A DNA stretch of 23,092 bases from positions 1 to 23,092 of IMG/VR virus record IMGVR_UViG_3300030108_003376; one strand, written 5' to 3'. The position numbers and the translations under genes were made by a program. Under the pieces are notes generated by a model. It ran no database searches, was not told where the DNA came from, and saw only the letters and a program-made list of their open reading frames with translations. Of this stretch, positions 8,479-23,092 are shown one piece after another. The stretch is from a virus. Each line of letters opens with the position of its first letter. The stretch's first letter is position 1.

Positions 8479-11400
8479 ATGCCAAATCTAAATCGTAGAT
8501 TTTCATCAGGTCGTATGAATAAAGATCTTGATGAAAGATTAGTGCCTAACGGTGAATATAGAGATGCGTTAAATATAGAGGTTGCTACGTCAGATACTTC
8601 TGATATGGGTACTGTGCAAACAGTCATGGGTAATTTAAATATGTCGCTAACAACAATTGATCCTAATAATATTAGTGATTTTTACTGTGTTGGTAGCGTG
8701 GTTAATGAACAGCACGACAAAATATATTGGATGTTAGCTGGTAGAAACTCTGATATAATAGCTGAATACGATTATAAAACACAAACAACAACACCCGTTG
8801 TTGTAGACCTGTTTCCTGCAGGAACTATACCGGGAAATGAAAGCGGTAGAGTATTAAATTTCGATAGAGCATTTTTGATTACAGGTATTAACATAATAGA
8901 AAATATGTTATTTTGGACTGATAATCACTCAGAACCTAAAAGAATACATATTGATAGATGTAAATTAGGTACACCTGATTTTACAAGTCAAACTCAATTA
9001 TTTGTAAGAGATATATCAACTAACAATGCTAGTGTAGAATATTACGCTAAAGGTGACTTAAAACATGAACATATAACTATTATAAAGAAAAGTCCACCAG
9101 CACCACCTATTTTAGAAATGCGTAATAAATTAAGAGTAGATCAAGATCCTTATGGATCAAATTTTGCTACTGATTTTCTTATAGGTATAACTGGTAATTT
9201 TACAACAGATCCTGGTAATCCGTTTTTTGATGCAGACAGTAATCCTATAGAAAGTTTATTAGTAAATTTTAATACTTCAGGCTTGTTTAATCAATTTCCT
9301 GATTTTGTTATTGGTGATATAATAAATATATACGTTGGTGTTGATGAAGCAGAAGATAATAATAAATTTGTTAGAGCAGAAATATTATCATACGATATTA
9401 ATACTGGTGCTGCTACTTTAAAAATCTTATCTGGTACAAAGACAATTATATCTACGAGTGGCGAGTGGTACGTAGAGCTAGAGCAAGCAGAACCTTTGTT
9501 TCAATTTAAATTTCCTAGATTTGGTATAAGATACAAATACGAAGATGGTGAATATTCATCTTTTTCACCTTTTTCTCAAGTAGCATTTTTACCACAAGAT
9601 TTTGATTATTTACCAAAAGAAGGTTATAATTTAGGTATGGTTAATAATTTAAGGTTTTTAGCTATAAGAGATTTTGTACACGGCCAGTCTATACCAGATG
9701 ATGTTATTTCTGTAGATATACTTTATAAAGAATCAAACTCACCAAATATATATACTGTAAAAACTATAAAACGTTTAGAAAACGATTGGGTACCAGGTTT
9801 TGAACCATGGTCTAGCAGTATATCAGGTTTAGATGATGTTGTTGCTAATTATAGTGAATGGAACGCTATTGGTCCAAAAGATACGGTTGGTGCTGCTAAT
9901 GGTTTGGTACCTGGTCAGCTTACTAGAGGTTGGACTAGAATAACATCAGAAATGATACACGCCATATTACCTTCGAATCAATTATTACGACCTTATGATA
10001 ATGTTCCAAGAATTGCTTTAGCGCAAGAAGTTGTAGGTAATAGATTAGTTTATGGTAACTACCTGCAAAACTATAATATGTTTAATAGGTTTGCTGTTCA
10101 AACAAAAGCATTAGAATATTTTAATGAATTTAACTTTGGAGAACTAGATCCTGAATCACAGATAAGTGTTGATGTAAAAGTATCTTTAAGTTCAAAATCA
10201 GCTGGTGAAAATGGACAGTTATTACCTGAACAATCAAATCCATTTTATAGTTATTTTAATGTATATTTACCTGCAAAATCAATAAAAACATTACGTACTT
10301 ATCAACTTGGCGTAGCTTATATAGATGAGTACGGTAGAGAAACTCCAGTGTTTTCTAATAGCACGATAGATAAAGCTTCTTTATATGTAGAAAAAATAGT
10401 AGCAGATAAAAAAAATAGATTACAAGCTCAATTATTTAACACGCATCCTGAGTGGGCTAAATCATTTAAGTTTTTTGTTAAAGAAACTTCAAACGAATAT
10501 TATAACTTAGCAATGGATCGTTGGTATGATGCTGAAGACGGTAATATATGGATTAGCTTTCCATCATCTGAAAGAAATAAAATAGATGAAGAAACATTTT
10601 TAATACTTAAAAAAGAGCATGATAATAACAATTTTGTATCTTCGCCTGCTAGATATAAAGTAATAGCTATAGAAAACGAAGCTCCAACTTTTGTAAAAAC
10701 AAGCACGCTAGAACAACCAACGTTTATAGAAACAAAATCAGTTGCACCTTTTGATATAGGTAATGGTGCTACTGGTTTTCCTGTAATAGGTGGTGATACT
10801 ATTAATTTAGATTCAACTGCGTTAACAGGCTCTGGTTGGGACGCTACTTTAAACTTAGGTATAAATAATCCTGTAAATCCTTCTATAAGTATTGTTATAA
10901 GAGATTATGATATAAGAATAACAGGTACAGGAAGTGGCTCTAATTTTTCTAGTAACTGGTATAGGTTAAAAAGTGTTGCGGCGAGCGGTACTGATTATGT
11001 GTTTACTATATTTAAAGAGTTTGAATCTGATGTAAACGTTTTATCACCAAATGGGCTTCATACTGGTTATACAGGTGGTGGTAAGATAGAGTTAAGAAGA
11101 AGAGTAATAGATAATAAACCAGAGTTTGATGGTAGATTTTTTGTAAAAATAAGAAGAGATGCTGAATTAGAAAATACAATAATAAAACCAGTTACTTCTT
11201 CTATTAATTGGCAAATTAATAACTCTATGCAAGTTCAGTATATAAATCCAGACTCTGACTTTTCAAAAAACGCTGGACTTGAAGGTTTTTTTGGTGTTTG
11301 GGATCAATCAAGTATACCTGAACAAGCTATTAGTCTTGCCGCTCGAACTGCTAGTAATCCTGGAACTCATGTTAGTTTTCAAGCAACTGGTGGAGGTTTA

Positions 11401-14400
11401 GGCCAAGATTATTGGGAGTTAGCTAGTCATAATACTGATTCTGCTACTAATGAAAGTAGCGGTTGGTTTATTGATAAAATAGAAGGTTTTAGAAGATTCC
11501 CAACAACACAACATTATTTTGGGCAAACTAATACTGACGAGTGGTTAACAAAAGCTGAGCATGGTAATCACGGGTCTGGGGGTGGTGCTCTGAGTTTTTT
11601 TAGGTACTGGGGACCAGCTGGATATAATTGGTTTGGTTCACCGCCTTCAACAAATAATGGAAATGCAATGAATAGATATGATATGCCTGTTGTTATGGGT
11701 ACAGCTACGCACTCTAGTTCTGACACAGGTTCTTATTTAAATTTAAATCATTCACAAGGATTATTTAATGTTATCGGTGATGCTAATGTTAACGGACCTT
11801 CTTATATTGGTAATGGTCTAACAATTACAACGCCAGGTACTAACTGGGTTGATTCTACTTTTAGCGATGCCCTTGAAGTTGGTGGACAAAATACTGGTGG
11901 TAGAAAAATGAATAGTGAAGCAATTATTAATAATATAGATGGTTTTGCAGATAACATAAATCAATCAGTACTTAGAACAGGTTTAAATGGTTATTTACAA
12001 CACGTAGGAGATACTTTTGGTTTTGGTACGGTTGGAGCTTTACCAGGAAACGGTGGTGGTGTATTACCTTCTCTTGGTATTGATGGTCATCCTAGCGCTG
12101 GAGGTCCAAATCCAGATCATACTGGTTTGATTAAAGGTGTTAATAGTTATCAAGGTACAAATATAATAACTATATCACACGCTGGAGTAGGTGGTGATGT
12201 TGATGGTACAGATGTAGATGGTAAAGACGCTCCTTCGCAAGGTGCTAGTGTTGGTGATTTAGTTTTAGCTTTTGCGTTTGGCGCAAATCAAACAGGCTAT
12301 ACAGTAAAACATGTTCAAGATATTTCTTTTATAAATGCTCTTCGAACTCCTGGTACAGCTTGGAGATGGGCTGAAGATCCAGGTCAAGTAATTTACAAAA
12401 CAGTTGATCCTAATACAGTTGATTTATCTGGCTGGGGTATAACTTCTACAGAAATAAATGTTAATTTTACTGGTGCTGATCCTTTAGATGGTGAGCCCGG
12501 TATTGGTTTATATAATTATTGTAGTTTAGGTGATTGGGCTGATAGTTTTATGATGTGGGGAGATGGTGGTGCTAGTGGTAGATATACTAGAGCTGCAATG
12601 GTTTCACAAGGTGCTGGTAGTATGCCTAGTCAAGGTGGTGCTGTTTACGTAGCAGGAAATACAGGTGGTGTTGGAACAATAGGTCAACCACAGTGGAAAT
12701 ATAGTGATGCTTTTACAAACCCAGGCGCTGACGCTGTAAATAGGTATTACCGTGTTGCTGAGTCTAATAACTGCGGTGGCTGGGCAGTTGGAAACTATCT
12801 TGGTCCTGGCTTTAGCACAACAACCGCAGCGCATGGCATGTGGCCTATGTACGTTAAAGATTGGTGGAAATCAATAAATAGACGTAGAAGATTTATGATA
12901 GTAGCAGAAAGCTATGATGCTGGTTTAGGATTAGGTGAAACTGCACCTCATCATTATTTACCTACAAACGATCCTAACTTAACACCACACTTTACTTCTG
13001 CTACTGCCGTAAAACCAGGTCCATTTACAGATCCAGCACCTGGTATACGTTCTGATGGTATTTATTCTGGTTATAATACAGGATCTGGAACTGTTCCTTT
13101 TGGTCCAACTATAGATGGTACTACAGGAGCAGAAAAATTTCCAGGTAGTGTTACTTGGCAAATATTATCTCCTTATATAGATAGTGATTCAGAAAAATAT
13201 TCTAGTACAAATCCAGCTATTTGGGAAACAGAACCAAAAGAAGATGTTGGTTTAAATATTTATTATGAAGTTGGACAAATATATCCAATAGAATTAAATG
13301 AAAAAACAGGTGAACAGTTTGTTGGACCAATACATCCTTCAATACCTTTAGCACCTCTTAATAGTAAAGTAAACTGCTACGATCCTAATCCAGTTTCAAA
13401 TCCTAATGGTAATTTTAGAGGTATACAAACAGGTGGTGCTGTTTTAGGTTTAGGCGCAGCTGCTGACATAAGAGTTGAAAGCTTACAAGACAATGTACTT
13501 ACACTTTGTGATGTTGATGGTGGTAAGTTAAATACAGATGTTAATCCATCAGCTACTCTTCCAGAGCCTGGTGATAGATTAATATTTTCAAGAGCTGATG
13601 GTGGTAAAACAGAAACTACAGTTTTAGGTGTAAACGCAACTACAGGTGAGTTTGTTTTAGATAGAGCTTTACATAATTATAAAGTTACTTTACCTTGGCA
13701 CAACTGTTATACTTTTGGTAATGGTGTTGAATCTGATAGAATACGTGATGACTTTAATCAAGTTACTATAGATAACGGTCCAAAAGCTTCTGCTACACTA
13801 GAAGAGCCATATGAAGAAGAAAGAAGAGGTAGTGGTTTAATTTATTCAGGTATTTATAACTCGATGTCTGGTGTAAATAATTTAAATCAATTTATACAAG
13901 CAGAAAAAATTACAAAAGATTTAAATCCTATATACGGTACAATACAAAAACTACATACTAGAGATACTAATTTAGTTACACTTTGTGAAGATAAAATATT
14001 TAAAATATTAGCTAATAAAGATGCTTTGTTTAATGCTGATGGTAACAGTAATGTTACAGCTACTGATAGAGTATTAGGCGCAACAACGCCTTTCTTAGGT
14101 GATTTTGGTATATCTCAAAATCCAGAGTCATTTGTAGCTGAATCATATAGAGCTTACTTTACAGATAAAGTTAGAGGACAAGTATTAAGATTATCACAAG
14201 ATGGTATAACACCTATATCTGACGCTGGTATGGGTGATTGGTTTTCTGATAACTTAAAATTAGCTAATAGATTAATTGGTAGTTATGACGAAAAGAAAGA
14301 TGAGTATAATCTAACATTGGATCACAAAGAATATCCATTAGCACAACCTGTGCAAGTTATTGATAATTTTTTAATTGAAATAGAAGCTTTTACACCAGAC

Positions 14401-17400
14401 GCACCTCCTGGGGTAATTGCTGATTACGAGCCTACAGGTAATATATTAGCACCTATAACTGTTGGTATCACAACTGGTATGGTTCTTAATGGACCTGGTC
14501 TTGCTCCTAATACTATAGTAACATCTGTTACACCTAATAACAATAGACTAGTATTAACTGTAAATCCAGCACCTACAACAGCTGATGTTTCACCACTTTT
14601 AGGTCCTGCTGCAGCTAATCAATTTGCAAGATGGTTTACGCATGTTGCTCTTGGTATTTTTCCAGAACCTGTTTCAAACTATAGCAATATTAGTGGTAAT
14701 TATGATACTACTGTAAGTTTTTCTGAAAGAGCTAAAGGTTGGACAAGTTTTAAATCATTTGCTCAAGAAGGTGGTGTTAGTTTAAACAATACATATTATA
14801 CATTTAAAGGTGGGCATTTACACGAGCATCACGTAGAGTCTCAGCCAAGAAATAATTTTTATTCTATACCTGGTGGCCAACAGTTTCAATATGATTCTAG
14901 TATTGAAGTTTTATTTAATGAAGCTCCTGATGTTGTAAAATCTTTTAACACTTTAAATTATGAAGGTACACAATCAAGAATAACACCTGATATAGAAAAT
15001 TCTGGAGAATATTGGGATAATTATTTACATACTGGTTGGTATGTAAGTAATATGTTAACTAACTTGCAAGAAGGAGGTATGCAAGAGTTTAAAGAAAAAG
15101 AAGGTAAGTGGTTTTCACAAATAAAAGGTGTAACCACGGAGTGGTTAGATGATGGTAAAGCTGGTAATATAGATACAAGAGAATTTTCATATCAAGGTAT
15201 AGATGAGGCTGACGCTATTCAGACGACGTATGGTGGTTATACTTCTTATGACTGCAGGCCATTAGCAACTGCAACTTGTGGTGCTGGTGTTAACATTGGT
15301 ATTGGCCAAGGAGTAACTCCAGGTAGTAGACAGTTAATACAAATATCAGAATTACTTTCAGGTGTAGATAATTGGGTAACTGGAGCATCTAATCCTTCTT
15401 ATAGTCCAATACATTTATTTGGACCTATGATTATGTGGCTTGTAGATAACGCTCCAGATGATCTAATTAGTGATTATGCTTTTGAGTTTTTAGATACTAG
15501 CGGTGTTATATCAGGCGTTGCAGGCGTATCAACAACAGCTTATTGGTTTTTTGGTTCTAGTGATGATTTTTCTCTTGAAAGTCTTTTTCCTGTTCCTTCA
15601 CATTATGCTCCACCAACTAATTTAAAAATAAGAAGATGTAGAGAGTTTATGGATTATTTAAATTTAAACTCAAGCGCTGATTTTAGAGAAGGTAGATATA
15701 CAGATTACACTACTTATATGGTAACTGGAGATCTTAACGATGTTACTGTTACTAATACTCCAGGACCAAACACAAGAGAAATATATTCTCAATCACAATT
15801 TTGGATAGGTCAAGGAGGTAGTGTTTATGGTGGTTTTTGTACTGAAGCAAATACAATTATAAATCCTCAAGGTTATCACTGTGTAGAATTACAAAACCAA
15901 AATGGTCAATACAGTACTTTATCAGCTTGTGAGTCTGTTTGTGGATTAAACGAAGAAACATATGAGTGTGTTAATGGCTCATGTATTGATCCAGGTGATG
16001 GCAGTGGTAGTTATACTACTTATTGTGATTGTGTAAATGCTACCTTGTGTTGTGATGAAGGAGCTGCATACACTTACGATTGCCAAAACATAACACCTCC
16101 TACTCCTATTATATATGGTTGTATGGATGATGGTATTACAACTGACCCGTACATAACAAGAGATAGACCTTCTAATTTTGTAGGTCAAGCTAACAATTAT
16201 TATCCTCAAGCTAACGCTCCTGATTGTAGCTGTGATTACTTTAGTACTCCACCACCACCTGTTACTTGGGATTGTTCTGGTCCTAATGGTACAACGTATA
16301 ATGGTGTTTATTATCAACCATACACTTGTTATGATCCAGGTAATGGCCAAGGTCAATACAACGATACTAGCGCTAGTTCTACTAATTATCCAAATCCTTT
16401 AGCACAGTGTCAATCAGGTTGTCAACCACAACCATGTGATCCTTCAAACTATTATACTGTCAACAATATAAGTGTTATAAATACAAATACTAATGATGGT
16501 TGTGTTACCGGTCAAATTAGTGTAGCTTTATCTAGTATGGTTAACGATGTTGTAGTTGAAATACAAGATTTAAGCGGTGTAGCTATTACTTCTCAAACTT
16601 TAATAGCTCCAGCTGCTAGTTATGTGTTTGCTAATTTAGCTGATGGTGATTATAATGTAAACATTTACGATGTTGTTGATAATTGTGGAGATTTTTACAG
16701 TGTTTCAATAAGTTGTACTCAATCGCCTAGCTGTGATACTCAAAACTTTGGAGCTTCAGCTATAACTACACAAAATTTCTTTGCTACTGATTGTGGTGAT
16801 AATGGAACTCTTTTACAAGATGGTATAGTACAGTTAACGGTACCAAATAATGGTTATGGTCAGTCATCTGGTACTTATACAATAACTAGTATTGAAGCAG
16901 TGTATGTTAACCAATCAGGACTTACAGCGTCAAATAACATAACACAGTTTGTTAGTGTTAACGGTTTTGCTATTGCTAACTATACAGCTAATATAGGTAC
17001 TGCAAGTGTGCAGTTAGACGGTATTCAGTTTACTTTAAACCAAGGAAATAGTATAGCTTCATTCCCTAATGGTTATGAGTTTTTAATTACAATACAAGAT
17101 AGTAACGGATGTAACTTAACGTTAACAGCGGTTATTGCTTGTGATGAGCCGCCACCACCACCTTTACCTGAATATGATTGTACAATTGTAGGTTCTAGTG
17201 GTTTCCAGTGTGTACAAGCTTCTGGTGGTTTCTTTAGTAATTCTTTAGCAGCAGTAAGTATAAATCCACAAACAAATAATCCTTTTGCTTCACCGTTGTT
17301 AATGTGTCAATATTATGTTAGTCAAAATTTACCACCATGTCAAACTATTACTCCTGTTGATCCTGATCCTATAGTTGGTTGTATGGATGATGGTACTCCA

Positions 17401-18420
17401 GCTAATTACGCACCTAATAGGCCTTCTAACTGGGTTGGTGCTGCATCAAACTATAATCCATTAGCTGTAATTCCAGGCCCTTGTACTTATCCTGTTTTAG
17501 GTGATAATGGTGGTGGTACTAGTGGTGGAGGTGGTAGTGGAGATCCAACTAGTGTGCCTGGTTGTACAGATCCATTAGCACTAAATTATAATCCACTAGC
17601 TACATTTAATGATGGTTCTTGTGTTTATGGAACACCTACTGGTTGCGAGTTAGATAGACAAGGTCTTGTTTCATATGATGCTAACTTCCAAAATACTTAC
17701 GCTGGTGATTATCAGTTTATAACAAATGGTCACGCTGATCAATCAATATATTCAAATGTTGCTACAGGAAGTTGGAATGACGCTTTTGAAAACGCTCTTA
17801 ATGCTCATGGATTTGTTTTACAAACTCCAACAAACATTTCATCAACACCTGGTTATGGTCAATGGCATTGGTTTACTGGTTCTAATAATCCTAGTTTTAA
17901 TGTTCCAGTACCTACAATAGGTGCTAATCCTGGTACTCAGCCTGGTATTACGCTTAAGCTTGCCAACAATCAAGTGTCTGGAGTGAGTTATGCTAATCAT
18001 GTAACTGGTATTTATATGATTCCTCCTTACCATATGTGGGGCAGAACGTTTTTTATGGAAATAACATTTGGACCAAATTCTACTGCTGGTCAAAGCACTG
18101 GAAAAGGATATTTTGGTAATGGTGCTGATTTTAGAGTTGGAACAAGCGTAAATCCAATTACTTTAAGTAATATAATTTACACTACTGCACCAAACACAGA
18201 AATACTAATTAATAACATTGCGCCAAACAATAATTTTGTACCACCTGATGGTTATGTTATTGGTACGCCTTCAAGCCCATTTAATATAATTGTAGATTTA
18301 AACAGTTATGACCCACAAGCACCAACTGACGTGCCTTACGTAGTAATTTCTTTAGAAGGTGAGGAAGTACAAACGTTAAATATTAAACAAATTTGTTTTA
18401 TTGACATAAGAGATGTATAA
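8479..18420 (+). CDS. Giant tail hub/muzzle-like protein with adhesin-like C-terminus
   Basis: 3313 residues, far larger than usual hub proteins. The N-terminus (DLDERLVPNGEYRDALNIEV, residues 15-35) is a signature of tail-hub/'stabilization' proteins like P22 gp10 and the crAss-like muzzle. Further hub blocks are YQLGVAYIDEYGRETPVFSN (about 610), FKFFVKETSNEYYNLAMDRW (about 663), NPAIWETEPKEDVGLNIYYE (about 1578-1597), CEDKIFKILANKDALFNADG (about 1833-1855), RAYFTDKVRGQVLRLSQDG (about 1895) and SERAKGWTSFKSFAQEGG (about 2083). Residues about 905-1555 are a Gly/Asn-rich, poorly recognised middle. From about 2450 comes an array of Cys-rich repeats, two Ig-like domains (2653-2746, 2752-2888), three GC(M/T)D repeats and Pro-rich linkers. 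A final Cys-poor domain (3051-3313) is unrecognised and may bind the host. No signal peptide or membrane segment is seen. The stop codon lies inside the start region of the next gene. Confidence 0.78.
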   Translation: MPNLNRRFSSGRMNKDLDERLVPNGEYRDALNIEVATSDTSDMGTVQTVMGNLNMSLTTIDPNNISDFYCVGSVVNEQHDKIYWMLAGRNSDIIAEYDYKTQTTTPVVVDLFPAGTIPGNESGRVLNFDRAFLITGINIIENMLFWTDNHSEPKRIHIDRCKLGTPDFTSQTQLFVRDISTNNASVEYYAKGDLKHEHITIIKKSPPAPPILEMRNKLRVDQDPYGSNFATDFLIGITGNFTTDPGNPFFDADSNPIESLLVNFNTSGLFNQFPDFVIGDIINIYVGVDEAEDNNKFVRAEILSYDINTGAATLKILSGTKTIISTSGEWYVELEQAEPLFQFKFPRFGIRYKYEDGEYSSFSPFSQVAFLPQDFDYLPKEGYNLGMVNNLRFLAIRDFVHGQSIPDDVISVDILYKESNSPNIYTVKTIKRLENDWVPGFEPWSSSISGLDDVVANYSEWNAIGPKDTVGAANGLVPGQLTRGWTRITSEMIHAILPSNQLLRPYDNVPRIALAQEVVGNRLVYGNYLQNYNMFNRFAVQTKALEYFNEFNFGELDPESQISVDVKVSLSSKSAGENGQLLPEQSNPFYSYFNVYLPAKSIKTLRTYQLGVAYIDEYGRETPVFSNSTIDKASLYVEKIVADKKNRLQAQLFNTHPEWAKSFKFFVKETSNEYYNLAMDRWYDAEDGNIWISFPSSERNKIDEETFLILKKEHDNNNFVSSPARYKVIAIENEAPTFVKTSTLEQPTFIETKSVAPFDIGNGATGFPVIGGDTINLDSTALTGSGWDATLNLGINNPVNPSISIVIRDYDIRITGTGSGSNFSSNWYRLKSVAASGTDYVFTIFKEFESDVNVLSPNGLHTGYTGGGKIELRRRVIDNKPEFDGRFFVKIRRDAELENTIIKPVTSSINWQINNSMQVQYINPDSDFSKNAGLEGFFGVWDQSSIPEQAISLAARTASNPGTHVSFQATGGGLGQDYWELASHNTDSATNESSGWFIDKIEGFRRFPTTQHYFGQTNTDEWLTKAEHGNHGSGGGALSFFRYWGPAGYNWFGSPPSTNNGNAMNRYDMPVVMGTATHSSSDTGSYLNLNHSQGLFNVIGDANVNGPSYIGNGLTITTPGTNWVDSTFSDALEVGGQNTGGRKMNSEAIINNIDGFADNINQSVLRTGLNGYLQHVGDTFGFGTVGALPGNGGGVLPSLGIDGHPSAGGPNPDHTGLIKGVNSYQGTNIITISHAGVGGDVDGTDVDGKDAPSQGASVGDLVLAFAFGANQTGYTVKHVQDISFINALRTPGTAWRWAEDPGQVIYKTVDPNTVDLSGWGITSTEINVNFTGADPLDGEPGIGLYNYCSLGDWADSFMMWGDGGASGRYTRAAMVSQGAGSMPSQGGAVYVAGNTGGVGTIGQPQWKYSDAFTNPGADAVNRYYRVAESNNCGGWAVGNYLGPGFSTTTAAHGMWPMYVKDWWKSINRRRRFMIVAESYDAGLGLGETAPHHYLPTNDPNLTPHFTSATAVKPGPFTDPAPGIRSDGIYSGYNTGSGTVPFGPTIDGTTGAEKFPGSVTWQILSPYIDSDSEKYSSTNPAIWETEPKEDVGLNIYYEVGQIYPIELNEKTGEQFVGPIHPSIPLAPLNSKVNCYDPNPVSNPNGNFRGIQTGGAVLGLGAAADIRVESLQDNVLTLCDVDGGKLNTDVNPSATLPEPGDRLIFSRADGGKTETTVLGVNATTGEFVLDRALHNYKVTLPWHNCYTFGNGVESDRIRDDFNQVTIDNGPKASATLEEPYEEERRGSGLIYSGIYNSMSGVNNLNQFIQAEKITKDLNPIYGTIQKLHTRDTNLVTLCEDKIFKILANKDALFNADGNSNVTATDRVLGATTPFLGDFGISQNPESFVAESYRAYFTDKVRGQVLRLSQDGITPISDAGMGDWFSDNLKLANRLIGSYDEKKDEYNLTLDHKEYPLAQPVQVIDNFLIEIEAFTPDAPPGVIADYEPTGNILAPITVGITTGMVLNGPGLAPNTIVTSVTPNNNRLVLTVNPAPTTADVSPLLGPAAANQFARWFTHVALGIFPEPVSNYSNISGNYDTTVSFSERAKGWTSFKSFAQEGGVSLNNTYYTFKGGHLHEHHVESQPRNNFYSIPGGQQFQYDSSIEVLFNEAPDVVKSFNTLNYEGTQSRITPDIENSGEYWDNYLHTGWYVSNMLTNLQEGGMQEFKEKEGKWFSQIKGVTTEWLDDGKAGNIDTREFSYQGIDEADAIQTTYGGYTSYDCRPLATATCGAGVNIGIGQGVTPGSRQLIQISELLSGVDNWVTGASNPSYSPIHLFGPMIMWLVDNAPDDLISDYAFEFLDTSGVISGVAGVSTTAYWFFGSSDDFSLESLFPVPSHYAPPTNLKIRRCREFMDYLNLNSSADFREGRYTDYTTYMVTGDLNDVTVTNTPGPNTREIYSQSQFWIGQGGSVYGGFCTEANTIINPQGYHCVELQNQNGQYSTLSACESVCGLNEETYECVNGSCIDPGDGSGSYTTYCDCVNATLCCDEGAAYTYDCQNITPPTPIIYGCMDDGITTDPYITRDRPSNFVGQANNYYPQANAPDCSCDYFSTPPPPVTWDCSGPNGTTYNGVYYQPYTCYDPGNGQGQYNDTSASSTNYPNPLAQCQSGCQPQPCDPSNYYTVNNISVINTNTNDGCVTGQISVALSSMVNDVVVEIQDLSGVAITSQTLIAPAASYVFANLADGDYNVNIYDVVDNCGDFYSVSISCTQSPSCDTQNFGASAITTQNFFATDCGDNGTLLQDGIVQLTVPNNGYGQSSGTYTITSIEAVYVNQSGLTASNNITQFVSVNGFAIANYTANIGTASVQLDGIQFTLNQGNSIASFPNGYEFLITIQDSNGCNLTLTAVIACDEPPPPPLPEYDCTIVGSSGFQCVQASGGFFSNSLAAVSINPQTNNPFASPLLMCQYYVSQNLPPCQTITPVDPDPIVGCMDDGTPANYAPNRPSNWVGAASNYNPLAVIPGPCTYPVLGDNGGGTSGGGGSGDPTSVPGCTDPLALNYNPLATFNDGSCVYGTPTGCELDRQGLVSYDANFQNTYAGDYQFITNGHADQSIYSNVATGSWNDAFENALNAHGFVLQTPTNISSTPGYGQWHWFTGSNNPSFNVPVPTIGANPGTQPGITLKLANNQVSGVSYANHVTGIYMIPPYHMWGRTFFMEITFGPNSTAGQSTGKGYFGNGADFRVGTSVNPITLSNIIYTTAPNTEILINNIAPNNNFVPPDGYVIGTPSSPFNIIVDLNSYDPQAPTDVPYVVISLEGEEVQTLNIKQICFIDIRDV
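15874..15942 (+). repeat. Cys-rich repeat, copy 1
   Basis: Encodes residues 2466-2488 of the giant tail protein: Y-H-C-V, then a Gly-Gln-Tyr turn, then STLSACESVC. It is one of four related units sharing an aromatic-x-Cys start, a Gly-x-Tyr/Phe centre and a C-terminal Cys pair or single Cys. The unit looks like the Y-x-C...DPGxGxGxYST..C...C repeats I recall from marine Bacteroidetes phage tails. Confidence 0.6.
15961..16053 (+). repeat. Cys-rich repeat, copy 2
   Basis: Residues 2495-2525 of the giant tail protein. It begins YECVNGSCIDPGDGSGSYTT, the fullest form of the unit, and ends with four further Cys (CDC...CC). Eighteen bases separate it from copy 1, so the first two copies are tandem. 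Confidence 0.6.
16117..16239 (+). repeat. GCMDDG repeat, copy 1
   Basis: Residues 2547-2587 of the giant tail protein. It starts GCMDDG, contains DRPSNFVGQANNYYPQA and ends PDCSCDY. It is a long variant of the Bacteroidetes GC(T/M)D..A.NYNP.A...GSC repeat, with an extra RPSN(F/W)VG segment shared with the copy at 17377. Confidence 0.7.
16321..16422 (+). repeat. Cys-rich repeat, copy 3
   Basis: Residues 2615-2648. It begins YTCYDPGNGQGQYND and ends NPLAQCQSGC, aligning with copies 1 and 2 but with a longer Ser/Thr/Asn-rich spacer before the last Cys pair. It follows the first GCMDDG repeat and a Pro linker, and directly precedes the Ig-like pair. Confidence 0.58.
17203..17340 (+). repeat. Cys-rich repeat, copy 4 (diverged)
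   Basis: Residues 2909-2954. It begins FQCVQASGGFFSNS and ends ASPLLMCQYYVSQNLPPC. It keeps the aromatic-x-Cys-Val start and the ...PL..CQ end of copy 3 but is longer. It comes after a Pro-rich linker that follows the second Ig-like domain. Confidence 0.5.
17377..17490 (+). repeat. GCMDDG repeat, copy 2
   Basis: Residues 2967-3004. It starts GCMDDGTPANY, contains RPSNWVGAASNYNPLA and ends GPCTY. It aligns along its whole length with the unit at 16117. Confidence 0.72.
17560..17628 (+). repeat. GCTDP repeat, copy 3 (short form)
   Basis: Residues 3028-3050. It reads GCTDPLALNYNPLA and then NDGSCVY, the classic form of a repeat widespread in secreted proteins of marine Flavobacteriia. A Gly/Ser linker separates it from the previous copy. 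It immediately precedes the terminal domain. Confidence 0.78.
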
Positions 18421-18421
18421 T

Positions 18422-20110
18422 ATGAATATAAATTTTGAACAAGACATATCGAGAAGCCCTGAAAGAAGAAGGCAGAGAGCAATAGCAAAAGGTATTGTTC
18501 CTGCTTCTGGGTATAATGATAATGAAAAAATTATTAAAAGTATTATCGTAGGTGATCAAGAGTATATGAATACATTAACTTCTTCAGGTGGTAATGTTCG
18601 TATAAAAATATCTGGTACTACTGACGCTATGTTTTCTATGACTATAGTTGATAGTTCTGGTTGTAATATGTTAAGAAAAGAAATAAAAAATGTTAAAATA
18701 GGTAACAAAGGTATTTACAATTTTTACCAAAACTTTCCTTCAATAAATTCTGTTAAAGGTTCAAAAGGTAAAATACCAAAAGAAACTTACACAATAACAG
18801 TTACGCCTAGCGCTGATACTAGTTTTTCTAATTATATAGATGCTAATCCTTACGTTACAACAATTGAACAGCGTGCTAAATCAAAAATAACAATTGCTAG
18901 ATATGAAAATGATATAACTGGTTTAACTTTTACAGGCTCTGCACAATCACAAACTGGCGAAGCAAATCAAGCTAGTAATTATCAAGGTTATACTGATATT
19001 AGTTTTCCTATAGCTGTTAAATATAGTAGTTATTCAGCTGGTAATATTTATGTTAAAAGCACTGACTTTAATACTAACGTTATAAAAAACAATACTATAA
19101 AAGGTATAGTTTACAGAGATGGTAAAACTGGTAAAAGTAATAATTATGAGTTTGGTATAGATTCAAACAATGATTATGTTGGCGGTGTTGTTAAAGATCT
19201 TGTTAGTAAAAACTTTGAAGAAAGAGTAAAAGATACTATAACAATAGGGTCAAAAGCTAGTTGGAGAATAGAACACGAAAAGTTTGTAGTACTTAGTTTA
19301 GATAAAGATGATAATGTTTTAAATTTTGATAATTGTAAAAATAATAAAACTAAAATATTTAAACTAAATAATACTTTAGATATTTTTCCTAACATGCAAG
19401 TAGTTGGAGATAATATAATAACTTCTGTAACATCTATAAGTACTTGTGGTGAAAAAGTAACTTTATCAGATGAATTAGTTATACAACCACACACTGTTTT
19501 AACTTTTATAAATAAAGGATCTGCTACTGTTACAGGCGTTGGTTTTGATAGAAAACCTGACAAAAAAACTATAGTTTTTAACAGAAGTGTTGATATACCA
19601 GATAGAACTGTAGTTACATTTGACGATGATACTTCTGCTGTAAGAGGAACTATATCTCAAGTAGGTAGTGGTAACACTGGTAATGGTGATGCTAACGACG
19701 TAGATTTAACGTGTACAGTTTCTATTAAGAAGTTTGGTAATAAACCTGAGTTAGTTTATGCTTTAGATATGAGTAAAATTATTTCTGTAAAACCAAACGC
19801 TTATAATCAAAGTGTTGTTACTGCTAAAAATACAACTATAGCTATAGATGTAATAAAGTTTGACACTGATGTTAACAGAACTAGCAAAATAGGCACTGTT
19901 GTTAGACCACCTAGTCATGGTACAGTATCAGCTTATAGTGTTAGTGATGACGCTTTTGCATACTTACCTAATAATAATTTTGTTGGTAGTGATTCATTTA
20001 CATTTACAATGAGTGATGGCACTAATACTAGTGATGAAAAAACAATTTTAATAGAAGTTTTAGAAGGTGCTTCTGGTATTTCAGAATCAGTAGGTCTTGG
20101 TGGTGATTAG
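18422..20110 (+). CDS. Virion protein with C-terminal Ig/cadherin-like domain
   Basis: A 562-residue protein. The frame also has an ATG at 18413, overlapping the previous stop, but the ATG at 18422 is preceded by TATAAT exactly as at 6290 and 8479, so I use it. The N-terminal part (NFEQDISRSPERRRQRAIAK) is charged. The body is Gly/Ser/Thr/Asn-rich beta structure with Ile/Val alternation, as in phage tail or fibre proteins. Residues about 470-550 form a recognisable bacterial Ig/cadherin-like domain (Big_9 type): TVVRPPSHGTVSAYSV, then FAYLPNNNFVGSDSFTFT and MSDGTNTSDEKTILIEV. Such domains act as spacers or carbohydrate-binding modules in adhesins and phage fibres. No Cys array like that of its upstream neighbour. 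It ends in TAG, the only TAG among the complete genes here, and a TAA follows seven codons later. A tail accessory or fibre role is likely but inferred. Confidence 0.68.
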   Translation: MNINFEQDISRSPERRRQRAIAKGIVPASGYNDNEKIIKSIIVGDQEYMNTLTSSGGNVRIKISGTTDAMFSMTIVDSSGCNMLRKEIKNVKIGNKGIYNFYQNFPSINSVKGSKGKIPKETYTITVTPSADTSFSNYIDANPYVTTIEQRAKSKITIARYENDITGLTFTGSAQSQTGEANQASNYQGYTDISFPIAVKYSSYSAGNIYVKSTDFNTNVIKNNTIKGIVYRDGKTGKSNNYEFGIDSNNDYVGGVVKDLVSKNFEERVKDTITIGSKASWRIEHEKFVVLSLDKDDNVLNFDNCKNNKTKIFKLNNTLDIFPNMQVVGDNIITSVTSISTCGEKVTLSDELVIQPHTVLTFINKGSATVTGVGFDRKPDKKTIVFNRSVDIPDRTVVTFDDDTSAVRGTISQVGSGNTGNGDANDVDLTCTVSIKKFGNKPELVYALDMSKIISVKPNAYNQSVVTAKNTTIAIDVIKFDTDVNRTSKIGTVVRPPSHGTVSAYSVSDDAFAYLPNNNFVGSDSFTFTMSDGTNTSDEKTILIEVLEGASGISESVGLGGD

Positions 20111-20136: not shown

Positions 20137-20559
20137 ATGCCTTTAATAGTTTTAAGATTTAATAGACCGCTAAACGTTTCCGTACAAGTTAACGACGTAG
20201 CTTATTTTTCAAACCCTGATCAAGTAGGTGTAAATGGTAATCCACAAGGTGGACCTTGGGCTGGTACAACTACGCCTCATTTAAAAAATGATCAAAATGA
20301 AATTATAAAAATAGGTATAATAACAAATATACAAGAAGCTGGTAACGTGTTTGTTTTAACATGTGATATGGCGCAAGATTTGTATAATCAATATTACGCA
20401 GATTTACAACCAGGTAGCTTTATAATGTTTAGTAAAGACAATAAAGCTAATATGGCTAACATGTTAGGTTATTATGCTTCCATAGAATATAGAAACAACT
20501 CCACTGATAAAGCAGAACTATTTGCTACCGGCGTAGACGTGCATGAAAGTAGTAAATAA
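20137..20559 (+). CDS. Small unknown protein of the tail region
   Basis: A 140-residue protein I do not recognise. It begins with a beta strand (MPLIVLRFNRPLNVSVQVND), has a Gly/Pro-rich loop (GVNGNPQGGPWAGTT), then two further strand-rich segments (IIKIGIITNIQ, VFVLTCDMA). A stretch suggestive of a ligand-exposed loop follows (YADLQPGSFIMFSKDNKANM), and the last part, MLGYYASIEYRNNSTDKAEL, is a strand pair or hairpin. It has one Cys, no signal peptide and no membrane segment. It is a compact single domain in the tail gene block and could be a minor virion component. The leader is TAAAATAATAAAT. Nothing in it identifies an enzyme. Confidence 0.65.
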   Translation: MPLIVLRFNRPLNVSVQVNDVAYFSNPDQVGVNGNPQGGPWAGTTTPHLKNDQNEIIKIGIITNIQEAGNVFVLTCDMAQDLYNQYYADLQPGSFIMFSKDNKANMANMLGYYASIEYRNNSTDKAELFATGVDVHESSK

Positions 20560-20603: not shown

Positions 20604-20999
20604 ATGTCTAAAGAAATAGATTTTGGTTTTACAAAAATGTTAAAAGATCTTAATATTACCAAAGAAACACTAAACGCTATAACACACACTGGAGAAGTTA
20701 TAGAATTTAAAAGTAATTTTTATTATAAAAAAAAATCACTTATACACGGTTATGGAGTTTTTGCTTTAAAAGATATAAACAAAGGTAACATTATAGGTAT
20801 TGGTAGTATTGATAATAAATATAAAACTACACTTGGTAGATTTACAAACCATAGTGATTTAAACAACGCTATGTTTTATTATTTAAAAAATAATGACGTT
20901 GTTATGGTTGCTACTAAACATATAGATAAAGACACTGAAATACTTATAAATTATAGAGATCACGTGTTAAATAAAATTTACTTAAATGAAAATAAATAA
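20604..20999 (+). CDS. Compact SET-domain protein (putative lysine methyltransferase)
   Basis: A 131-residue protein carrying the SET-domain motifs in order: HGYGVFAL (48-55) with the Gly-x-Gly cofactor-binding turn, GRFTNHS (78-84) with the Asn-His pair, and DTEILINY (110-117) with the candidate catalytic Tyr117. Between them lie MVATKHIDKD (101-110) and the ALKDINKGNIIG (54-65) strand-turn typical of these folds. SET domains transfer a methyl group from S-adenosylmethionine to protein lysines. There is no post-SET Cys cluster. Residues 1-40 form a short helical lead. Length and motif spacing are at the small end for SET proteins, so activity is not assured. It lies in the late structural operon and overlaps the next gene by 14 bases. 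The target is unknown: a virion or a host protein are both possible. Confidence 0.8.
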   Translation: MSKEIDFGFTKMLKDLNITKETLNAITHTGEVIEFKSNFYYKKKSLIHGYGVFALKDINKGNIIGIGSIDNKYKTTLGRFTNHSDLNNAMFYYLKNNDVVMVATKHIDKDTEILINYRDHVLNKIYLNENK

Positions 21000-21471
21000 A
21001 AAAAATAATAACGAAGTTTCTACTAATTCGAGAGAAAAAATATTGAAACTTGAAGAAACTTTAATAAGTAATGCTGATGGTTTAAATATAGAAGGTACTG
21101 GCAAAGAAATAATGACTGACAGCAAAATAGCTCCAATAAAACATGATTTTGCAGACGAAGTTTATATAAGACAGATGAGCATGAAAAAAAATAGTATAGT
21201 AGTTGGAGCAATACATAAACATTTACATGTTTGGTTTTTATTAACCGGACACATTACAGTAGCTACAGAAGATACAACAGAAGATTATATAGCACCGTGT
21301 TATACAGTGTCAACGCCAGGTGTTAAAAGAGTTATACTTGCAAACGAAGACTCAATATTTGTAAACGTACACAAAAATCCTTCTAACACGCAAGATATAG
21401 ATCAATTAGAAAAAGATATAGTAGCTTTAAATTACGAAGAATATGAAGAGTATATTAATAAAAATAAATAA
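20986..21471 (+). CDS. Cupin-like protein overlapping the SET gene
   Basis: A 161-residue protein that starts inside the end of the SET gene, implying translational coupling. Residues 1-60 are charged and helical. Residues 66-132 look like a single cupin barrel: VVGAIHKHLHVWFLLTGHI (72-90) resembles cupin motif 1, with His77 and His79 as candidate metal ligands, and YTVSTPGVKRVILANEDS with NVHKNP (128-132) resembles motif 2, with Pro111-Gly112 and His129. The Glu usually found in motif 1 is missing (Val/Trp instead), so metal binding, if any, would use an atypical set. I do not see the HxD...H pattern of 2-oxoglutarate dioxygenases. Its role may be structural or small-molecule binding. Adjacent placement to the SET gene suggests a functional link, but that is inference. 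Confidence 0.68.
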   Translation: MKINKKNNNEVSTNSREKILKLEETLISNADGLNIEGTGKEIMTDSKIAPIKHDFADEVYIRQMSMKKNSIVVGAIHKHLHVWFLLTGHITVATEDTTEDYIAPCYTVSTPGVKRVILANEDSIFVNVHKNPSNTQDIDQLEKDIVALNYEEYEEYINKNK

Positions 21472-21474
21472 GAT

Positions 21475-22308
21475 ATGAGTTTTACTGTAGTAGCAATAGT
21501 AGGAGCAAGTGTAGCTGCAGCTGGCGGTATCGCTAAGCTTGGTATGAGTTTAGCTGGTAGAGGAGATAGAATAAGAGAGCAGAAAGCAGCTAAAAAAAGA
21601 CACTCTAAAATGATGCGTGAGTATGAAAAGCTAGACACTAGTAACATTTATGCTAATGTAAAAAATCCTTATGCAGATATAGAAACTGAGTTTGAAAATG
21701 TATATGAAGATATGACTGTTAATCAGCAGCAAGCACAGTTTGAAAAACAAATGGCACAACAGCAACAAGCTAATATAATGCAACAAATGTCTGGTGCTGC
21801 TGGTGGTAGTGGTATTGCTAGTTTAGCTCAAGCTATGGCTAACCAAGGTCAACTGCAGGCTCAAAGAGCTGGTGCTTCTATTGGTATGCAAGAGTCGCAA
21901 CAACAAGCAATGAAAGCACAAGGTGCTCAACAAGCTAGAGCTATGGAACAGCAAGCACTAAGAACTCGTATGGCTGGTGAAGGTCAAGCTCAAATGCAAA
22001 GATTAAGAGGTGAAGAACAAGCTAGAGGTTTAGAATATCAAAAAACAGGTACACTGCTTGGTATGTCACAACAAAGATTAGCCGCTGCTAATGAAGCTAG
22101 AAGACAAGCTAAAGAACAACAAATGGCAGCTGTTGGTGATATAGCTGGAGCTGGTATGCAAGTTGCTCAAATGGGAGGATTTGGAGGTGGTGGAGGCATG
22201 AACCCAAGCGATATGATGAGTGTAGATCCACGTTTAAACTTTGATGAAAATAATATTCCCAACGAAGTTAGTTTTGGAGGTACAACATACACAACAAGTG
22301 GAAACTAA
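21475..22308 (+). CDS. Gln/Ala-rich internal or ejection-type virion protein
   Basis: A 277-residue protein. Residues 5-30 are a Gly/Ala-rich hydrophobic stretch (VVAIVGASVAAAGGIAKLGM) that could insert in a membrane. Residues 70-230 are long Gln/Ala/Met-rich helices (NQQQAQFEKQMAQQQQANIM, GGSGIASLAQAMANQGQLQA, MQRLRGEEQARGLEYQKTGT). The C-terminus is Gly-rich (MGGFGGGGGMNP) then polar. The motif YEDMTVNQQQAQFEKQM followed by AAGGSGIASLAQAMANQ recurs, from memory, in internal or ejected virion proteins of marine podoviruses and crAss-like phages. An amphipathic membrane-active segment plus long helices fits a protein released with the DNA to help cross the host envelope. No enzymatic motif is seen. 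It directly follows the cupin gene with 3 bases between. Confidence 0.7.
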   Translation: MSFTVVAIVGASVAAAGGIAKLGMSLAGRGDRIREQKAAKKRHSKMMREYEKLDTSNIYANVKNPYADIETEFENVYEDMTVNQQQAQFEKQMAQQQQANIMQQMSGAAGGSGIASLAQAMANQGQLQAQRAGASIGMQESQQQAMKAQGAQQARAMEQQALRTRMAGEGQAQMQRLRGEEQARGLEYQKTGTLLGMSQQRLAAANEARRQAKEQQMAAVGDIAGAGMQVAQMGGFGGGGGMNPSDMMSVDPRLNFDENNIPNEVSFGGTTYTTSGN

Positions 22309-22324
22309 AAAATAAAAATAAATT

Positions 22325-23092
22325 ATGGCTGTAAATTATAATCCAAATGTTGCTTTAATACAAGGTGCTGCCGCTATAGGTAAAAGCACTCTGCCTGCTG
22401 ATTTATCTGGTTTAGATAAAGTTGTAGAAGGCGGTATGACAATGTTAGAAAATGCTAGAAAAGAAAGGCAAAAAATAGACGATATGCTTAATCTTGCTGC
22501 TGATAAAGTTTTAGCTAAAGCAGGTAGTTTAGGTGAAGAAATGTTTAGTTACGCTACAGATCAAGTAGAAAAATATAAACAAGAGTATTTACAAGGTGTT
22601 GGTATGCGTGGCCCTGAAGGTGATAAAATGAAGCGTGCTGCTATGAATAAAATGATGGAATTAGCTAATTTTTCACAAGAACATAAAGAATTAAATACTA
22701 TTTCTGCTGAAAACTATAAAAACGGTATGTTTTCAACTGCATTAACTAACGATCAAAAAGCAATATTAACCTCTATATTTGATGAAAACTACACGCTTAG
22801 TGAAAACTCTGATGGTGAAATGGTTTACAATATAAATGTTAATGGTGAAAATAAACAAGTTACCTATGATGATTATAGAGAGTTAACTACTTATTTAAAA
22901 GATGAAACACTTGGTAACACATATAGAACAACTAGACAATCATTTTTAAAAGAAAAAGATTTTAAATATGATGAGTTTAAACATGTTATGATGCAATCAA
23001 TACCAAACAATGAATTAAAGTTTAAGCTTTCTATACATGATGATATTCAAGGACAAAAATTTTATGACATGCTACTGGAAGATAAGTCGCTA
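22325..23092 (+). CDS. Helical virion-type protein, truncated by window end
   Basis: The frame is open from ATG at 22325 (preceded by AAATAAATT) to the right edge, 256 codons without a stop. The protein starts MAVNYNPNVALIQGAAAIGK and is mostly helical: LDKVVEGGMTMLENARKERQ, GEEMFSYATDQVEKYKQEYL, DKMKRAAMNKMMELANFSQE. Residues 150-190 form a short strand-rich part (MVYNINVNGENKQVTYDDYR). I do not recognise the family. By position after the Gln-rich protein it may be another cargo or ejection protein, as these are often long. The GAAAIGKST at 14-22 fits the Walker A consensus but no Walker B or strand context is evident, so I do not treat it as an ATPase. Confidence 0.72.
   Translation, partial: MAVNYNPNVALIQGAAAIGKSTLPADLSGLDKVVEGGMTMLENARKERQKIDDMLNLAADKVLAKAGSLGEEMFSYATDQVEKYKQEYLQGVGMRGPEGDKMKRAAMNKMMELANFSQEHKELNTISAENYKNGMFSTALTNDQKAILTSIFDENYTLSENSDGEMVYNINVNGENKQVTYDDYRELTTYLKDETLGNTYRTTRQSFLKEKDFKYDEFKHVMMQSIPNNELKFKLSIHDDIQGQKFYDMLLEDKSL

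Follow-up and report, generated by a model that had tools for sequence, protein, structure and literature searches.

The DNA analyzed here (the window) is a stretch of 23,092 nucleotides that makes up most of the IMG/VR virus record IMGVR_UViG_3300030108_003376 (24,363 bases), which begins inside TerL. The phage is marine and, as judged from its sequence, a podovirus related to Flavobacterium/Cellulophaga phages. Its capsid protein shares 39 to 44% identity with its counterparts in Flavobacterium (Elemovirus) phages, Maribacter phages, and one metagenomic podovirus, and Cellulophaga phages are also among the matches. The genes run from the end of TerL through the portal, scaffold-like, capsid, and head-tail proteins to a 3,313-aa tail protein, a Big_9 protein, a 140-aa protein, a SET-domain protein, a cupin-like protein, and ejection-like proteins. 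The SET gene (20604–20999, plus strand) is thereby embedded among structural genes, with portal, capsid, and tail proteins upstream and ejection-like proteins downstream, which agrees with the late structural block in which a first-pass annotation of this DNA had placed it.

Several neighbors in this block deserve a description of their own. The portal gene is split in the window contig into two ORFs (265–978 and 1019–2608) that correspond to positions 4 to 242 and 299 to 824 of the portal profile. Relatives have one intact portal ORF of 805 to 807 aa, and the split reflects either a deletion with a change of frame or an assembly error. The 3,313-aa tail protein (8479–18420) has a counterpart of 2,105 aa in the relative G004, of which about 215 residues align well. 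The 565-aa protein at 18413–20110 carries a C-terminal bacterial Ig domain (Big_9, E=2e-11) and is likely a tail or adhesion part. Directly upstream of the SET gene lies the gene of the 140-aa protein (20137–20559, plus strand), which shares 31% identity with its homolog in G004. There, the homolog directly precedes the cupin gene, an order that is repeated in most of the contigs L050–L093; in relatives, it usually abuts the cupin gene with no SET gene between them.

The SET gene starts with ATG and encodes 131 aa, in which N-terminal helices (about aa 3–27) precede a minimal SET core (about aa 38–118). The Pfam SET family (PF00856) matches this ORF with 43.4 bits (E=5e-11), the curated cut-off being 22.4 bits, and PHROG 34170 and PHROG 28741 match as well. 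All three SET motifs that the first-pass annotation had reported for a 131-residue protein are found in exactly this ORF, namely GxG in SLIHGYGVF, NH in GRFTNHSDLNN, and E..Y in EILINYRD. Across 45 phage homologs, the residues S45, G49, G51, T75, G78, R79, N82, H83, N88, E112, and Y117 are invariant, and the remainder of the sequence diverges to 25 to 30% identity. By the established SET motifs, the invariant residues correspond to the catalytic tyrosine and to the GxG and NH motifs of SAM binding. The dN/dS ratio of the window SET against its homologs is about 0.16 to 0.4, which indicates that the gene is under purifying selection. The protein contains no cysteine and therefore none of the zinc-binding pre-SET or post-SET clusters. 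The cysteine clusters and subfamily domains of the eukaryotic histone methyltransferase subfamilies KMT2, SETD8, and EZH2 are likewise absent from the 131-aa protein, and the alignment covers the SET core only. An NCBIfam match to AnkI/LegAS4 lies far below the cut-off and reflects merely the shared SET domain. Distant SET-like matches (L047–L049) span 36 aligned residues inside 664-aa proteins in nonstructural neighborhoods and were left out.

The fold agrees with the family assignment. A profile search of the PDB with the window SET returned mostly SET methyltransferases. An initial AF2 model built with seven sequences was poor (pLDDT 55); repeated with 45 homologs, the prediction reached a mean pLDDT of 83.1, with most of the SET core at 90 or above. 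In a Foldseek search of the PDB, SET-domain structures head the list (probability 1.00, query TM about 0.5), and the top match is the viral enzyme vSET (3kma, E 4.7e-6, target-normalized TM 0.65). In a viral library, the top match is a 263-aa “SET domain containing protein” from an uncultured Caudovirales phage (TM 0.76). Structure prediction, which the first-pass annotation had named as a check, thus upholds its assignment, and it is confirmed that the window ORF encodes a genuine minimal SET domain, the agreement of the evidence going far beyond chance.

The enzyme vSET is protein A612L of chlorella virus PBCV-1, an H3K27 methyltransferase (PDB 3kma and 1n3j). Like the window protein, it is a minimal stand-alone viral SET domain of about 120 aa, and it is the best fold match in the PDB, but the two proteins share only about 25% identity, and the resemblance is not proof of a common specificity. 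The bacterial host has no histones, unlike the setting in which vSET works, and we know of no cupin partner of vSET. To our knowledge, SET enzymes in general have been studied almost entirely as histone methyltransferases.

The gene that follows encodes a cupin-like protein of 161 aa (20986–21471, plus strand). Its start overlaps the end of the SET gene by 14 nt, and an ejection gene of the gp14/gp7 type comes directly after it. The protein matches PHROG 12032 (E=8e-26), named “short tail fiber protein,” and PHROG 24280 (E=1e-19), named “tail fiber adhesin.” No Pfam family matches the window protein, Pfam Cupin_3 being found in one homolog only (E=2e-4). A profile search of the PDB places cupins first with weak E values of 0.02 to 0.04, so that the protein weakly resembles a cupin by profile; PDB matches to Ika8/Ika4 are artifacts of repetitive propeller proteins. 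The window cupin keeps the cupin-type histidines H77, H81, and H129. A similarly annotated phage protein has been called an “RmlC-like cupin,” and the short tail fiber label is used for such proteins in other phage work (PMC8703784). In the material examined, however, this label stands on thin grounds, as it consists of PHROG names only and has no experimental basis.

Homologs of the cupin were collected from 25 phage records and 44 IMG/VR contigs. In annotated phages, its gene nearly always follows the tail gene(s) and precedes the first ejection or internal virion gene, an Alteromonas phage being an exception, and in the window’s own group, an ejection-like gene directly follows it. The corresponding gene of the window (21475–22308, plus strand) encodes a 277-aa protein with a hydrophobic N-terminal stretch followed by a Gln/Ala-rich part. 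No direct family match was obtained for it in Pfam or PHROG; it is a probable ejection protein 1 of the T7 gp14/P22 gp7 type because of its position after the cupin and its N-terminus (MSFTVVAIVGASVAAAGG), which is as in the DNA ejection and internal virion proteins of relatives. The next gene (22325–23092, plus strand) runs off the end of the window and has no convincing family match in Pfam or PHROG; from its position only, it may encode ejection protein 2. The place of the cupin and SET genes equals that of T7 gene 13 (PF11090, “probable scaffold protein Gp13”), which lies between the gp12 tail and gp14 ejection genes. Neither the window SET nor the cupin matches PF11090, however, whereas T7 gp13 matches PF11090 only.

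In other phages, the two proteins are joined in one polypeptide. The C-terminal half of PHROG 34170 matches the window SET and the N-terminal half matches the window cupin; one member of this family is ANY29560.1 of Pseudoalteromonas phage PH1. Such cupin-SET proteins are encoded by PH1, ct1fd225, zth2-2, Rhodoferax phage P26218, and ctfPj964, and the isolated phages comprise 55 records with a P26218-like cupin, eight of which (five phages) carry SET. In ctfPj964 (MW202557; L102, 4356–5240), the cupin-SET gene is unannotated, and an ORF on the opposite strand that is probably spurious is annotated. A search of IMG/VR with a fusion query gave 579 candidate loci, some of which perhaps hold the cupin only. 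The best 80 of these 579 were kept, and all 80 are full cupin-SET fusions; GxG and NH are present in 80/80 and E-T-x-[DN]-Y in 79/80. The ORF after the fusion starts within 20 nt in 78 of the 79 testable contigs of this set, and 76 of 79 such ORFs show the hydrophobic N-terminus that characterizes an ejection protein (“MSGIATAIVGSAVIGG...”). The query selected for the fusion but not for its link to the ejection gene. Among bacterial sequences, two MAG contigs only have a cupin-SET fusion, and since ejection-like genes are adjacent, both are probably (pro)phage.

The fusions (PHROG 34170; PH1 ANY29560.1, P26218 gp30, ct1fd225 UOF81456.1) have in common with the window a SET domain with an N-terminal helical segment, a cupin partner, and a site directly upstream of the ejection gene. 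The window is not a PHROG 34170-type fusion, however, but has two overlapping genes in reversed order, SET and then cupin. Most fusions additionally harbor a GCxGG loop in their SET domain that is absent from the window SET. The cupins differ as well: in most fusions, the cupin lacks two of these histidines (window numbering), H77 being replaced by Q in 85% and H129 by Y in 91%, whereas stand-alone cupins, including that of the window, retain both. This loss is a correlation only, which fits a role of the fused cupin as a binding module. At window positions 115 and 148, the SET-fused cupins (L104–L183) have invariant lysines, and stand-alone cupins differ at both.

Separate genes in the order SET-cupin-ejection are found in the window and in L082, whose SET is very divergent. 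L082 is also the single record among 44 cupin-selected relatives, many of which are fragments, that has a SET gene anywhere; SET is accessory in the window’s own group. The first-pass annotation had named as a check whether relatives have the gene and whether it keeps its location there. The homologs exist, as the 45 phage sequences illustrate, the closest having 79 to 82% identity (L001–L006) and 64% identity (L042–L044, L096–L098). The location is not kept, and a fixed position in close relatives is ruled out: in the closest homologs (G001–G006, L042–L044, L096–L098), the SET gene overlaps a phage GroES-like gene (PHROG 13932) and directly precedes the terminase genes and the portal. In G004 and G002, the cupin and ejection genes abut with no SET between them, and SET lies about 20 kb away.

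Different parts of the window point to different closest relatives. Compared with the L042 group, identities are 80 to 82% for the portal, 85% for the TerL end, 62 to 65% for the scaffold, and 64% for SET; compared with the G004 group, they are 71 to 73%, 76%, 45 to 50%, and 79 to 82%, respectively. The SET tree groups the window with L001 (95/97), and synonymous divergence is lower for SET (0.5–0.7) than for the portal (1.0–1.1). The discordance between portal and SET argues for horizontal transfer, and the simplest reading is that the SET gene would have been transferred between subgroups and moved to the cupin/ejection site. A host-derived SET gene was also considered and set aside, as no window-type SET homolog was found in GTDB genomes; this is weak evidence, since the pattern search needs short near-exact peptides.

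SET is not the only transferase at this site. A GNAT acetyltransferase gene lies directly upstream of the cupin in Acinetobacter phage L014 and directly upstream of the cupin-SET fusion in L126, and zth2-2 has another close to its fusion. The small protein that occupies the corresponding place in phage Piluca is preceded by a GNAT gene. With GNATs beside the cupin or the fusion, the site recurrently holds protein-modifying transferases, which suggests that the cupin/ejection locus may be a site of exchange for late protein-modifying enzymes. A related case is Rac (LUZ19 gp28), a small phage transferase that likewise modifies proteins and whose gene lies at the margin of the structural block. 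It differs in its GNAT fold, in transferring acetyl groups, in its target, the host RNA polymerase, and in its gene, which stands at the start of the block and not beside the ejection genes (PMC7552054).

The SET protein would be a small SAM-dependent protein-lysine methyltransferase that is expressed late along with the structural genes. It would work with the neighboring cupin, which may serve as an adaptor or chaperone in the vicinity of the ejection (internal virion) proteins. Methylation would most likely fall on lysines in a virion or assembly protein, for example one of the larger ejection proteins, the portal, or the tail, and would tune assembly or refolding during ejection. The overlap with the cupin gene in the window and the fusion elsewhere point to assembly or ejection rather than to a generic modification of capsid or tail. 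We favor this late, cupin-guided methylation of a virion or assembly protein tentatively, with somewhat less than even confidence. The substrate can be narrowed by lysine content. In SET-positive phages, ejection protein 1 is lysine-poor (median 2.1%), no alignment column exceeds 45% lysine, and the protein of L113 has no lysines at all; the lack of a conserved lysine column and the lysine-free L113 rule out ejection protein 1 as a universal substrate. The second downstream protein contains at least 16 lysines in every SET-positive case, and it, the portal, the tail, and host proteins are possible substrates. The partnership with the cupin is not obligatory, as SET is rare in the window’s group and lies about 20 kb from the cupin in the closest homologs.

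A host protein as the target is a serious rival because of Rac, whose gene in phiKMV-type phages overlaps the first structural gene and whose product acts on the host RNA polymerase alpha (PMC7552054). SET would by analogy methylate RNA polymerase, a translation factor, a nucleoid protein, or a chaperonin and redirect the cell late in infection, and its place in the structural operon would set the timing only. That SET is accessory and mobile and occurs in two different neighborhoods suits such an effector. A free effector of the host would not be expected to be fused repeatedly to a cupin whose own gene nearly always adjoins an ejection gene, though, and we consider a host target somewhat unlikely. 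The overlap of SET with the GroES-like gene (PHROG 13932) before the terminase in G001–G006, L042–L044, and L096–L098 raises another candidate, modification of the phage GroES-like co-chaperonin, of GroEL, or of a capsid protein that they fold. This link is improbable, as the fused cupin-SET gene of many other phages is located in the ejection block and has no chaperonin gene beside it.

Two further explanations were weighed. SET could be a noncatalytic structural or binding module of a minor tail or short tail fiber protein, as the PHROG names of its partner and the use of the same label in other phage papers (PMC8703784) would have it. That label is the one without experimental basis in the material examined, and a purely structural domain would be expected to lose the GxG, NH, E, and Y positions that are invariant in 45 diverse homologs, which leaves this explanation unlikely. 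A passenger gene with no settled role that spreads by transfer between phages would account for sporadic presence, a changed location, and a SET tree that conflicts with those of portal and terminase. It can hardly be reconciled with the dN/dS values, the conserved active site, and the repeated fusion to the same partner, the cupin, and is very improbable.

The preferred reading, a cupin-guided methyltransferase, can be extended beyond the window. Cupin adaptor and SET lysine methyltransferase, fused or adjacent, could form a widespread phage protein-methylation module whose synthesis shortly precedes that of the ejection proteins and whose targets are virion proteins, in podoviruses that infect very different hosts, with GNATs as alternative enzymes at the site; we regard this generalization as possible, if doubtful. 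Phage records and databases already list SET proteins by name, so this is not a new kind of protein. The open-access literature yielded no paper on phage SET proteins, in line with the first-pass annotation, which knew of no such modification described for this group, and no account of a recurrent cupin-SET unit tied to an ejection gene. Such a unit in podoviruses of Proteobacteria and probably Bacteroidota appears to be undescribed in the open-access literature searched. If the proposal is true, cupin-SET represents a use of lysine methylation by bacterial viruses in building or firing the particle, and the unit gives a testable function to a gene that is generally labeled “short tail fiber.” The idea can be tested in cultured phages (PH1 and Rhodoferax phage P26218).

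Two minor observations concern the relatives. In the upstream half of L002 and L004, the terminase genes are closely preceded by genes for a GroEL-like protein of 521 aa and for two GroES-like proteins, a small one of 85 aa and another of 196 aa (PHROG 13932). In Maribacter phage Panino (L025, 37231–39994), 15 annotated tRNAs and an annotated tmRNA adjoin the structural block.
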